A DNA stretch of 64,000 nucleotides from Desulfatirhabdium butyrativorans DSM 18734. Lineage in GTDB: Bacteria > Desulfobacterota > Desulfobacteria > Desulfobacterales > Desulfatirhabdiaceae. The translations under genes and the position numbers were made by a program. Under the pieces are notes generated by a model that was not told where the DNA came from, ran no database searches, and saw only the letters and a list, made by a program, of their open reading frames with translations. Shown piece after piece: positions 59,561-63,539 of the stretch. Every line of letters begins with the position of its first letter. Within the stretch, counting starts at the first letter, position 1. The stretch spans positions 47,976-111,975 of the forward strand of contig NZ_KE386987.1 in assembly GCF_000429925.1 (NCBI RefSeq). Direction: 5' to 3'.

Positions 59561-59704
59561 GATTACGACAACGACAACGACAACGATTAGGATTACGACA
59601 ACGACAACGATTAGGATTACGACAACGACAACGACAACGATTAGGATTACGACAACGACAACGACAACGATTAGGATTACGACAACGACAACGACAACGA
59701 TTAG
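59561..59704. repeat. 30-bp tandem repeat built of GACAAC hexamers
   Basis: Five units of 30, 24, 30, 30 and 30 bases, each GATTAC + (GACAAC)n + GATTAG, with the 24-base unit lacking one hexamer. Units are otherwise identical. The right edge overlaps the last codon of the gene starting at 60561: its TAA stop lies in the final GATTAG/GATAAC junction. Confidence 0.95.
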
Positions 59705-60561
59705 GATAACGATAAAAAAGCAAGTCGGCCGCTCCGATCGTCATTTTCCGGCAGCATCGACAGGGAAACCCAGCGCCCGATGGCTTCGATCATCTGGGTA
59801 TCGTTATCGAACGTGCTGCCCAGTTCCTGGAGGATTTCGACCCAGCAATCGTTCAACACGATCGGATTCCGCATTGTCGTATCCGGAAAGCCATCCGGGA
59901 GAAGCGGCCCAGGCTCGGCGTCGTTGAAAAAATAATGGATCCTGTCCCGTACCTCATCCTTGCGATACGGCCAATTGAGCACCCAATCGATTGCAATCCG
60001 AACGATTTCGATCATCGCAGCCCATGACCGGTGTTCCGCGTATCGGGTACCGAACAGCAAACGATCGAGGTATGCAAGGGTCTTTCTGCGCGTGACGATC
60101 AGACCGTAAGCATACCAGTCCTGCGTGGCGTCCATCAACAAAGTAAGCATCCTTTGGGGGATATGCACATGGCTGGGACAAAAATAGGTGCGGCAGGCAA
60201 AACCGCCATAATGGCAAATATCCCGCCAGTCTCTTCCGCCGTTTCCCGGGGATTGGGGATGCAGCAGGCATCCGGGTTTTGCCATGAGCCTGTCGATGAA
60301 TCCGATGTACGGGCAATGATGGAAATCGGGCAGGGGCAAGGAGCCCTTCAGCCTTTCCAGGGCAGAAGCGCCGAAGGCCTCTATTCCGGAAAATGTCCGG
60401 GGCGTTTCGGCAAACCGGGCGCTACGCTCCTCCAGAAGCGCCTGCAGCGCTGTGCGGCTGTTGTCCGGAAGGTTATAGAGTCCGCAACAGGCTGCGCAGG
60501 AGAGCCTGTGACCCTGACAAAAGGAGGTTATCACGGGGTTCCATTCAATGCGTTTTGCCAC
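59701..60561 (-). CDS. Cysteine-rich protein of unknown function
   Basis: A 286-residue protein with many Cys/His (FCQGHRLSCAACCGLYNL near the N-terminus, then FHHCPYIGF, GCLLHPQS, ICHYGGFACRTYFCPSHVH). The pattern recalls YkgJ-like or Fe-S/zinc proteins, but the family is not recognised. Initiation is at GTG (60561), 31 bases inside the end of the helicase gene, which suggests translational coupling and a functional tie to it. The C-terminus (RLAFLSLS) runs into the tandem repeat, so it may be truncated or newly extended. Confidence 0.7.
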   Translation of the reverse strand: MAKRIEWNPVITSFCQGHRLSCAACCGLYNLPDNSRTALQALLEERSARFAETPRTFSGIEAFGASALERLKGSLPLPDFHHCPYIGFIDRLMAKPGCLLHPQSPGNGGRDWRDICHYGGFACRTYFCPSHVHIPQRMLTLLMDATQDWYAYGLIVTRRKTLAYLDRLLFGTRYAEHRSWAAMIEIVRIAIDWVLNWPYRKDEVRDRIHYFFNDAEPGPLLPDGFPDTTMRNPIVLNDCWVEILQELGSTFDNDTQMIEAIGRWVSLSMLPENDDRSGRLAFLSLS

Positions 60562-63539
60562 TTTACCGGAATGCGCACCGTTTTTTTGGCCTTGTTTTCA
60601 AAGAGCAGATATCCGTTTTGCAGGCCGAACAGGAACAGATCCCGTGTGATGGCGACATCCATCCGGCAATATTCGATGATTTCCGCGATGCGGCCTTCTT
60701 TCCACCACCTGAGCGCCTGAAGACCGTCTCCGGATTTGGCCTTGCCGAGGGTGATGTGGGCCAGATGGTCCAGAGAGAGCCGATATCCCAAAAATCCATG
60801 AACCGATTCGAGAATATCGAGTGTGGGGATTTGCTGGAAGTCGAATTTTCCATATCCCCGCAGCACTTGATAATCGAATCGTTTGATGTTGAAGCCCACC
60901 ATCAGGTCGAAAGTTTTGAGCCGCTCCAGCAGCTCATCGATCCGATCTTCAAGATAGGCATCGTAACGGTCGGTTTGCGAATCGTAGAGAACGGCGCAGC
61001 TGACCTTCATCCTGTCCGCGCGGTTCCATCCACCCGCTTCTTCCGCGGACATCTGGGTTTCGATATCGAGAACGCCGTAGTGACCCATCGATAAACTCTG
61101 CGGGGTGGCGGGCTTGGTGTCTTTCCCCGGTGAACCCGCTGGTGATGGTGCACCGGAGGGCGCGGGGGCTACCGCAGGCTCCGGATGTTGGGGTGTGGCG
61201 CTGCTGTTCACACGCTCCTCCTGGACCGCCGGCCTGGATGCCGTGGCGGATTCCACTTTCTTTTTTCGCAGTATGGTCTTTTTCGATGGTGCTTCAAGCA
61301 GTTTGCGCAGAATGAAGCACGCGGCAGCCTTGTCGATGGGACGGTTACCCGAGCCGCATTTGGGGGAATGGACACAGGAAGGGCATCCATTGTTGCAGGG
61401 GCAGCTCTTGATCTGTTTGTACACGTATCCGACGAGTTCCTCGATTCGTTCGAAGGCCTCAGCGGTCAAACCTGCTCCTCCGGGGACGGCGTCATATACG
61501 AAGATGGCCGCCTCGCCCACATGGGGATGCAGGGTCGTGGAAATACCGCCCAGATCGTTTCGATCCGTCATGACCAGCAGGGGAAAGAGCCCGATGGTGG
61601 CATGCTCGATGGCATGGATGCCGCCCATGAAATGCAGAAACTGCTTTTCGGTCGCTTCGCGAATGGCATTTGGAAGGGCAATCCACAAGCCTTCGGTTTC
61701 GAATGTCAACGGCGGCATATCCAGCGAGAGCACCTGAATCTTGCGATGGGGGGAATGGCGCCATTTTTCATATCCAACTACCTGATCGGTCACCCGGAGT
61801 CTTCCCCGGAACGCATGAATGCCCTTTTGGGTCTGTTCGCCATCTACGGACAGGATGTCGGTTTCCTTGTGCGTGTGGGGCCGGGTATAGTAACCGAGAT
61901 TCTTCTCTTCGACCCATACATCCTGATTTTCCAGATCGAGCCGATCCACGACATAGGTCCTTCCCCGGTGCGTATAGATCGCACCCGGATGCGCCTCCCG
62001 AAATACGCGAAAACCGTCGATGGTGCCAATGACGCGCTGTTCGTTGCGGATCAGGTAGTTCTTTCCGGTTCCCCGCAGATCCACATCCCGCTGCGGATTG
62101 CGCTGGCCGGTGGTCCAGCTATTTCCATCCGAGCTTTTCAACAGCCTGCCATCGGCCTCCAATGCAAGCAGGCTCTGGGAGATTTGAGGCGTCTGGCAAA
62201 GGGGTTCCTGGGTCCGAATGTCGAGTTCCGCCGCGGCGCACAGCAGATGCTTTTCGAGGATGACCGGATTGAGCGGATTGACGACAGCCGTTTCGGGTCT
62301 TCTATCCAGAAGATCCCGCGGATTTCGCAGAAAATACTGATCGAGCGCGTTGTCCCCGCCGATCAGAATCAGCGCGCTGTCCTGGCCGGAGCGTCCTACC
62401 CTGCCCGCGCGCTGCCACATGGACACTACGGTTCCGGGATAGCCGACCAGGATGCACAGATCGAGGTATCCGATATCGATGCCCAATTCGAGGGCGCTGG
62501 TGGAAACGACGGCCAGAAGCTCACCGGAGCAGAGTTTCGCCTCGATTTCCCTGCGCTCTTCCGGAAGAAAGCCTGCCCTGTAGGCGCTGATGCGGTTGCG
62601 AAAGCTGCCGGATCGCTGCGATGCCCACATGGCGATGCGTTCGGTCATCTCCCGGGATTGGGCATAAACGATGGTGCGCAACCCGCGGTGCAGGGCGGCC
62701 TTCATCAGGAGGATGGCCGTCTGGGACATGCCTGCGACAGGATCCAGAAAGATGAGATGGCGATTTCCCTGCCCGGCGCCCGAGTCGGTGATGGCGACCA
62801 TGTCCTGAGCGGTCAGCCGGCTGCAGAAGGCTGCCGGGTTGTCCACCGTTGCCGAACAGCAGACAATTGTCGGGGATACGGCGTAGTGCCCGGCGACCCG
62901 GAGCAATCTGCGGATGACCCATGCCATGTGGCTTCCGAGGATGCCGCGGTAGGTATGTACTTCATCGATGACGATCAGCCTGAGTCGGGAAAAAAAGGTT
63001 TTCCACAGATGATGATAGGGCAGAAGCGACAGATGGATCATTTCCGGGTTGGTGAGCAGAATGTTGGGCGGGTTGTCCCGGATCATCTTCCGCTTCGGGG
63101 ATGTCGTGTCGCCGTCGTATGTTTCCACGGTAGGCCGAAGAACGCTGCCTGCAGGAGACAATTCGGATATGACGCGCATCTGGTCGTGGGCCAGCGCCTT
63201 GAGCGGAAAAACATACAGCGATGTCGCTTCCGGTTCCTCGGCCATCCGCTGCAGGAAAGGGATGTGGTAGGTCAGCGTTTTACCGCTTGCCGTCGGTGTC
63301 GCCACCACCACATGACGGCCATCCAGAACGGCATCGATCGCTTCGGCCTGATGGGCGTACAGCGCAGGTATTTTGGCTGCAACGAGCAGCTGCCGTACGG
63401 GCGCAGCCAACCGGTGCCTCAATTTCTGGGTTTTGGGGGAACTGGCGGGAAGGATCTGGTTGTAAATGACCTGATCGCCGAGAGCATCGGAGCGTTTCAG
63501 CGCCTGGATATATTCGGTAATGCCGGATTCATGCTTCAT
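60531..63539 (-). CDS. MrfA-like DEAD/DEAH helicase fused to a DEDD exonuclease domain
   Basis: A 1002-residue fusion. Residues 1-740 are a superfamily 2 helicase of the MrfA/Hrq1 type: Walker A ATPTASGKT (80-88), LIVIDEVHTYRG, CCSATVDNP, QRAGRVGRSGQ, and a C-terminal DUF1998 zinc cluster (CPCNNGCPSCVHSPKCG). A Pro/Ala/Lys linker spans ~745-820. Residues ~820-1002 are an RNase H-like exonuclease (YGVLDIETQ with D825/E827, VGFNIKRFDYQ with D889, YCRMDVAITRD with D961). In Bacillus, MrfA and MrfB are separate proteins acting in mitomycin-damage repair; here both activities are in one chain. A DNA-repair role is inferred. Confidence 0.92.
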   Translation of the reverse strand: MKHESGITEYIQALKRSDALGDQVIYNQILPASSPKTQKLRHRLAAPVRQLLVAAKIPALYAHQAEAIDAVLDGRHVVVATPTASGKTLTYHIPFLQRMAEEPEATSLYVFPLKALAHDQMRVISELSPAGSVLRPTVETYDGDTTSPKRKMIRDNPPNILLTNPEMIHLSLLPYHHLWKTFFSRLRLIVIDEVHTYRGILGSHMAWVIRRLLRVAGHYAVSPTIVCCSATVDNPAAFCSRLTAQDMVAITDSGAGQGNRHLIFLDPVAGMSQTAILLMKAALHRGLRTIVYAQSREMTERIAMWASQRSGSFRNRISAYRAGFLPEERREIEAKLCSGELLAVVSTSALELGIDIGYLDLCILVGYPGTVVSMWQRAGRVGRSGQDSALILIGGDNALDQYFLRNPRDLLDRRPETAVVNPLNPVILEKHLLCAAAELDIRTQEPLCQTPQISQSLLALEADGRLLKSSDGNSWTTGQRNPQRDVDLRGTGKNYLIRNEQRVIGTIDGFRVFREAHPGAIYTHRGRTYVVDRLDLENQDVWVEEKNLGYYTRPHTHKETDILSVDGEQTQKGIHAFRGRLRVTDQVVGYEKWRHSPHRKIQVLSLDMPPLTFETEGLWIALPNAIREATEKQFLHFMGGIHAIEHATIGLFPLLVMTDRNDLGGISTTLHPHVGEAAIFVYDAVPGGAGLTAEAFERIEELVGYVYKQIKSCPCNNGCPSCVHSPKCGSGNRPIDKAAACFILRKLLEAPSKKTILRKKKVESATASRPAVQEERVNSSATPQHPEPAVAPAPSGAPSPAGSPGKDTKPATPQSLSMGHYGVLDIETQMSAEEAGGWNRADRMKVSCAVLYDSQTDRYDAYLEDRIDELLERLKTFDLMVGFNIKRFDYQVLRGYGKFDFQQIPTLDILESVHGFLGYRLSLDHLAHITLGKAKSGDGLQALRWWKEGRIAEIIEYCRMDVAITRDLFLFGLQNGYLLFENKAKKTVRIPVKWQNALNGTP

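Follow-up and report, generated by a model that had tools for sequence, protein, structure and literature searches.

A YprA-family helicase joined in one chain to a DEDDy exonuclease: a probable parallel to the MrfAB repair pair

The stretch of DNA analysed here ('the window', 64,000 nucleotides of the Desulfatirhabdium butyrativorans DSM 18734 contig NZ_KE386987.1, positions 47,976 to 111,975) encodes on its minus strand a protein of 1002 residues in which a helicase is followed, after a flexible linker, by a 3'-5' exonuclease (Table 1). According to the accessible text of three sources (PMC11194089, PMC12345164, PMC12458937), the 3'-5' helicase MrfA and the 3'-5' exonuclease MrfB (YprA and YprB in Bacillus subtilis) jointly serve in mitomycin C repair, and the initial annotation took the window protein for a fusion of these two. 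Our comparisons indicate that it looks instead like a parallel version of MrfAB, built from different branches of both protein families rather than by simple merger. We consider it reasonably probable that this is a separately assembled, single-chain helicase-exonuclease for DNA repair, which holds in its lineage the role that MrfAB has elsewhere.

The architecture first proposed, a DUF1998 (MZB) helicase joined to a DEDD exonuclease through a low-complexity linker, stands, and alignments of the C-terminal domain contain all of the catalytic acids. PF00270, PF00271, PF22982 and PF09369 all exceed their Pfam cut-offs in the fused chain, while RNase_H_2 (PF13482, residues 864-968) reaches 22.2 bits in the whole chain and 27 bits with the domain alone, against a cut-off of 22. 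The stretch between the two halves (749-820) appears by eye to be rich in Ala, Pro, Ser and Lys, and an AlphaFold2 model of the whole chain has the exonuclease domain well folded beyond it. The helicase half belongs to the YprA/MrfA helicase family: B. subtilis MrfA (BsMrfA, 6znp) matches residues 7-725 with 461 bits (phmmer), and the predicted helicase model aligns with 6znp over 723 residues (Z 38.5, root-mean-square deviation (rmsd) 6.7). Among 20 full-length fused proteins the motif residues T81, P82, T83, S85, G86, K87, D192, E193 and H195 are invariant, as are C713, C715, C719, C722 and C728 of the zinc region.

Modelled alone, the exonuclease domain has a pLDDT (predicted local distance difference test score) of 96.4, and its fold is best matched by family-B DNA polymerase proofreading domains (Z 15.5, rmsd 2.7, 158 of 181 residues; Foldseek 6.7e-7). 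B. subtilis MrfB (BsMrfB, 8un9) is not among the fold matches listed, but these lists are filled by polymerases and hence uninformative on this point. At E 0.01 or better, PF13482 matches 40/40 fused domains and DNA_pol_A_exo1 (PF01612) matches 33/40. The four DEDD metal-binding acids are present (D825, E827, D889 and D961); the fifth catalytic position is Tyr in all 20 fused rows and all 20 rows of free-standing relatives, and His in 11/11 MrfB rows. In the accessible text of PMC11194089, MrfB is described with an N-terminal extension and C-terminal tetratricopeptide repeats (TPR), unlike the fused exonuclease; no TPR is found among the nine Pfam matches of the window protein, which extends 41 residues past its last catalytic Asp. 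A profile of fused exonucleases searched against the PDB did not find 8un9 at E 1 or better, whereas a profile of exonucleases from split genes found it at 1.4e-48, and a profile-profile comparison of fused and MrfB alignments gave a weak match (probability 47.6, E 0.00019 for a single comparison). In a mixture-model tree (147 columns), MrfB including BsMrfB forms a clade with support 100/100 and the fused rows fall outside; on the same tree the fused and the free-standing groups need two changes each. An order obtained under LG+G4, in which the fused rows and a cyanobacterial row stood apart from MrfB and free-standing proteins (98), was unsupported by the better mixture model (p 0.061 and 0.458 for the groupings considered below), and for that reason we make no claim that any other group is nearer to the fused exonuclease than MrfB is. 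Judged from its residues and its place in the tree, the fused exonuclease is a DEDDy enzyme outside the MrfB clade, and its initial assignment to MrfB is not upheld as far as MrfB proper is concerned.

Two further observations concern the residues of this domain. The position of the MrfB Leu wedge (Leu113), six residues past the first Asp, is Ser in the window protein; it is Leu in 11/11 MrfB rows and also in 4/20 fused rows, and was dropped as a clean MrfB marker because of the latter. In one fused homologue (locus L096, 5552-6097), both the first and the last catalytic Asp are replaced by Asn, and this exonuclease is probably dead as a nuclease, with the helicase kept.

In a 50-row helicase tree, BsMrfA and eight split-gene helicases form one group (support 1.0), and 25 fused helicases form a clade of their own (support 0.978); BsMrfA is 47-53% identical to the split-gene helicases versus 33-39% to the fused ones. 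When 39 of the 50 rows were placed under a mixture model, a single group of fused helicases, split-gene helicases and BsMrfA was rejected by 45 log units (approximately unbiased (AU) test, p 0.0005). The group nearest the fused clade in the 50-row tree consists of helicases without a fused exonuclease (eight of L064-L072, and L078), and no fused-type exonuclease was found in their loci. Phylogenetically, the fused helicase is a YprA-family clade other than MrfA proper.

The fusion is conserved, neither chance nor a one-off. We surveyed 57 genomes (that of the window included) and, within the phylum of D. butyrativorans, 345 genomes. Helicase and fused-type exonuclease occur together in 26 of the 57, and in 25 of these a single frame runs from the start of the helicase into the exonuclease. 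In the remaining copy (genome G035; L282, 2087-5022) the helicase part is interrupted, with overlapping frames of 288 and 724 residues, either by real decay or by a sequencing error. Across the 345 genomes the fused-type exonuclease profile (A1) matches 101, in 95 of which the open frame containing the exonuclease is 940 residues or longer, the presence of the helicase in that same frame having been checked in the fetched loci only. The other six comprise a free-standing protein of 219 residues in genome G281 and five shorter frames (46-711 residues) that are taken to be contig-end fragments. Linkers range from 20 to 176 residues among 129 distinct fused proteins (median 38). A search of genome contigs with the full-length fused protein found no match, and one with the exonuclease alignment found at least 557 relatives among 588 candidate stretches; the 80 that were kept come from Desulfobacterales, Desulfovibrionales-type and other Desulfo- genera and relatives, with Olavius delta symbionts, Deltaproteobacteria and Proteobacteria. 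Contigs titled Nitratidesulfovibrio or Desulforapulum (L208, L237 and L241) are among the carriers of the exonuclease. A plasmid search returned one weak cyanobacterial relative (27%). Within the flanks, which span no more than about 4.5 kb and in many cases 1.5 kb or less, there are no conserved neighbours across 129 fused loci, the commonest flank cluster being a mixed one present in 19/129, on both sides and both strands.

Relatives of the exonuclease also occur without the helicase. The 219-residue frame of G281 (L280, 3610-4269) has no helicase in the surrounding 8 kb, and a second free-standing protein of the fused type, a frame of 188 residues in genome G157 (L281, 3367-3933), occurs alongside a fused gene. 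A third PF13482 group consists of DEDDy proteins that stand alone, their frames spanning 174-320 residues (L247, L254, L256, L261 and others), and co-occurs with the fusion in genomes such as G092, G076, G089 and G098.

A survey of fused against split forms had been proposed at the outset, and its answer is twofold: the fusion is common, but a true, split MrfAB pair is also present in the phylum. In four loci (L030, L075, L099 and L100) a YprA helicase is followed, within 50 bases or overlapping, by a frame of 410-464 residues that carries a DEDDh exonuclease (in L030 the locus ends within this frame), and TPR_14 matches three of these four MrfB rows. The MrfB profile (A2) matches 49/345 genomes, in two cases through the TPR part alone. 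Among the 47 without these two, the place of the helicase is known for 39, lying within 1 kb of MrfB in 31 and farther away in eight; two of the 31 (G079 and G323) represent another type of pairing. Not one of the 345 genomes was matched by both profiles, A1 and A2, where independence of the two would predict about 14 (P 8.6e-9, a value that assumes genomes independent of each other, contrary to fact). At the level of families, A1 matches 29 and A2 matches 17 (16 without the TPR-only rows), with none shared. The family of the window is divided by genus: the genome of the window (G000, genus g1) has the fusion, and a genome of genus g2 (G005) carries MrfA- and MrfB-type genes side by side (L030) with no fused-type match at 1e-20. 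This pattern fits replacement of MrfAB by the fusion, though it is explained in part by shared ancestry.

Several points weigh against a separate assembly that displaced MrfAB. On the 147 columns of the exonuclease alignment, one group of fused rows, MrfB and a cyanobacterial relative is not rejected (p 0.458), nor at 0.05 is one of fused rows and MrfB (p 0.061), and the fused helicase clade has a support of only 74 in the Shimodaira-Hasegawa-like approximate likelihood ratio test under the mixture model (39 rows). The mutual exclusion of A1 and A2 may largely reflect shared ancestry, with whole families carrying one or the other; counted by family, with the total assumed to lie between 100 and 143, its P is no stronger than about 0.002-0.02. 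Misses are also possible, with at most nine (A1), four (A2) and two (helicase) candidates scored per genome. Finally, some DEDDy enzymes act on RNA.

The alternative that survives best, possible though on balance doubtful, is a single ancient pairing that diverged into fused and split branches, was lost in helicase-only clades, and underwent the change between Tyr and His within its own history. The exonuclease grouping at p 0.458 is compatible with this, and the helicase-only clade next to the fusion (eight rows of L064-L072) could represent such a loss. However, the fused and MrfAB-type helicases do not form one group (p 0.0005); losses elsewhere could explain this, but other helicase clades are paired with other exonucleases. 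It seems improbable that the chain is an RNA- or RNA:DNA-processing enzyme, as the frequent matches to PF01612, a family that includes RNase D, might suggest, given that the best fold matches are proofreading domains of DNA polymerases and that MrfA, to which the helicase half comes closest, is a DNA helicase. Even less credible is a plain fusion of MrfA and MrfB orthologues. The helicase family and the Pfam exonuclease family PF13482 are common to the fusion and to MrfAB, and the helicase-then-exonuclease order is that of the adjacent genes in L030, L075, L099 and L100, but in the trees both B. subtilis proteins sit with the split genes, apart from the fusion, Tyr replaces His, there is no TPR match, and only the split-gene profile recovers 8un9; the helicase tree and the features of the exonuclease together lead us to reject it. 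As a consequence, the view that the fusion is natural evidence for joint action of MrfA and MrfB, a 'Rosetta stone' inference, does not follow directly, because neither half of the fusion is MrfA or MrfB in the strict sense; what remains of it is an analogous pairing. The remotest reading is a role in anti-phage defence, in the manner of the YprA helicases of DISARM, Dpd, Druantia and ARMADA: such helicases are central to these systems (PMC12458937, accessible text) and PADLOC models match the helicase core, but the best 25 of 56 PADLOC matches lie within residues 42-776 (the top one, BrxHI, over 42-386), the short flanks of 129 loci hold no conserved neighbours, and the accessible text of that preprint assigns exonuclease-linked YprA to a repair branch.

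Returning to a separately assembled counterpart of MrfAB, an MrfAB-like repair function is the likeliest reading of the fused chain by analogy. We infer its polarity (from BsMrfA), exonuclease activity, DNA substrate, type of lesion and exchangeability with MrfAB. We hypothesize that the helicase loads on single-stranded DNA beside a lesion and translocates 3'-5', with the 3' end of the tracked strand trailing behind. Because a 3'-5' translocase leaves the 3' end behind it, this end would be within reach of a tethered 3'-5' exonuclease, which may trim the trailing strand from its flexible tether, removing damaged DNA and leaving a gap for refilling. The fused chain would then act as a translocate-and-trim machine. 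A literature search for Desulfovibrio fitness data with mitomycin found none.

It is important to note that a fusion of helicase and exonuclease is already in print. A 2025 preprint (PMC12458937) mentions YprA helicases "fused to" MrfB/YprB homologs, which probably include the present architecture; in its accessible portion the fusion occupies one phrase, 'DEDD' is absent from the main text, and neither lineage nor exclusion is given. The preprint also reports that complementation needs alleles that are close. Among the papers listed by our literature searches, the supplements of the preprint lying outside them, none was seen to describe a fusion of DEDDy class, its separate clades or the way in which it and MrfB exclude each other.

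Known systems resemble the fused protein in part. B. subtilis MrfA/MrfB shares with it a superfamily 2 helicase with winged helix and MZB/DUF1998 domain and a PF13482-type DEDD exonuclease, but is encoded by two genes, is DEDDh with His, and belongs to another helicase clade. Human WRN, which appears among the fold matches of the helicase half, likewise combines in a single chain a helicase of 3'-5' polarity with a DEDD 3'-5' exonuclease, but it belongs to the RecQ family, has its exonuclease at the N terminus and lacks an MZB domain. SaDinG of Staphylococcus aureus (PMC12345164) differs in helicase family, in its 5'-3' direction, and in an N-terminal exonuclease of the DEDDh class. The family-B DNA polymerase proofreading domain is the best fold match and shares the DEDDy class (PMC11194089, accessible text), but comes with a polymerase part and is 13-21% identical among the matches listed.

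The coordinates of the gene and its features are collected in Table 1. The open frame around the fused gene has 1007 residues in the source genome, and a response-regulator frame ends 15 bases upstream of the gene. At its other end, the fused gene is overlapped by 31 bases by a minus-strand frame (59701-60561) for a protein of 286 residues that appears Cys-rich by eye; this protein is without a Pfam, NCBIfam or PADLOC match, and without a homologue in the other loci examined.

Table 1. Features of the fused helicase-exonuclease gene, in positions of the window
Feature	Positions	Strand	Basis
Whole gene, 1002-residue helicase-exonuclease	60531..63539	-	Open reading frame, ATG start, no internal stop
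YprA/MrfA-family helicase, residues 1-750	61290..63539	-	phmmer and fold match to 6znp
DEAD/RecA1 domain, residues 62-234 (Walker A TPTASGKT; DEVH box)	62838..63356	-	PF00270, 1.6e-30
Helicase_C/RecA2, residues 282-385	62385..62696	-	Pfam PF00271, 3.2e-14
Winged helix WHD_HRQ1, residues 420-491	62067..62282	-	Pfam PF22982, 4.1e-8
MZB (DUF1998) Zn-binding domain, residues 644-723	61371..61610	-	Pfam PF09369, 1.4e-21
Disordered linker, residues 759-816	61092..61265	-	pLDDT <50
DEDDy 3'-5' exonuclease domain, residues 818-998	60546..61088	-	PF13482, AlphaFold2 model, fold match
Catalytic D825	61065..61067	-	D in 70/71 fused homologues
Catalytic E827	61059..61061	-	71/71 fused homologues
Catalytic D889	60873..60875	-	71/71 fused homologues
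Y957, fifth catalytic residue	60669..60671	-	Y in 71/71 fused homologues
Catalytic D961	60657..60659	-	D in 70/71 fused homologues

The window protein is not the only other partnership of this kind. In L073 (2-2673) and L074 (273-4057), an MrfB-like DEDDh frame, whose aligned stretch has no TPR match, lies immediately upstream of a YprA helicase that falls in a third clade, and on haloarchaeal plasmids (L275, 3019-7187; L278, 1388-5988) a YprA-like helicase adjoins a protein with helix-hairpin-helix (HhH) and PF13482 domains that by eye has Tyr at the fifth position; L278 has a second PF13482 protein downstream. From these pairings it follows that the YprA family repeatedly meets DEDD exonucleases in different builds. 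Counting MrfAB (DEDDh with TPR), the C-terminal DEDDy fusion, the DEDDh of L073/L074 and the HhH-DEDDy of L275/L278, one might tentatively suppose that YprA helicases gained DEDD exonucleases several times, that in the window's phylum the fusion replaces MrfAB outright, and that what selection maintains is the pairing rather than either partner, though we hold this with rather less than even confidence.

Should the fusion prove an independent counterpart to MrfAB, it would be strong comparative evidence for joint action of a YprA helicase and a 3'-5' exonuclease, because the pairing would have arisen more than once from different parts. A one-chain enzyme would also fix the stoichiometry at 1:1 and so allow the coupling of translocation to trimming to be measured, a difficult task when MrfA and MrfB are two proteins. 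It would further serve as a caution that annotations such as 'DEAD/DEAH box helicase' and 'ribonuclease H-like' conceal at least two distinct systems.

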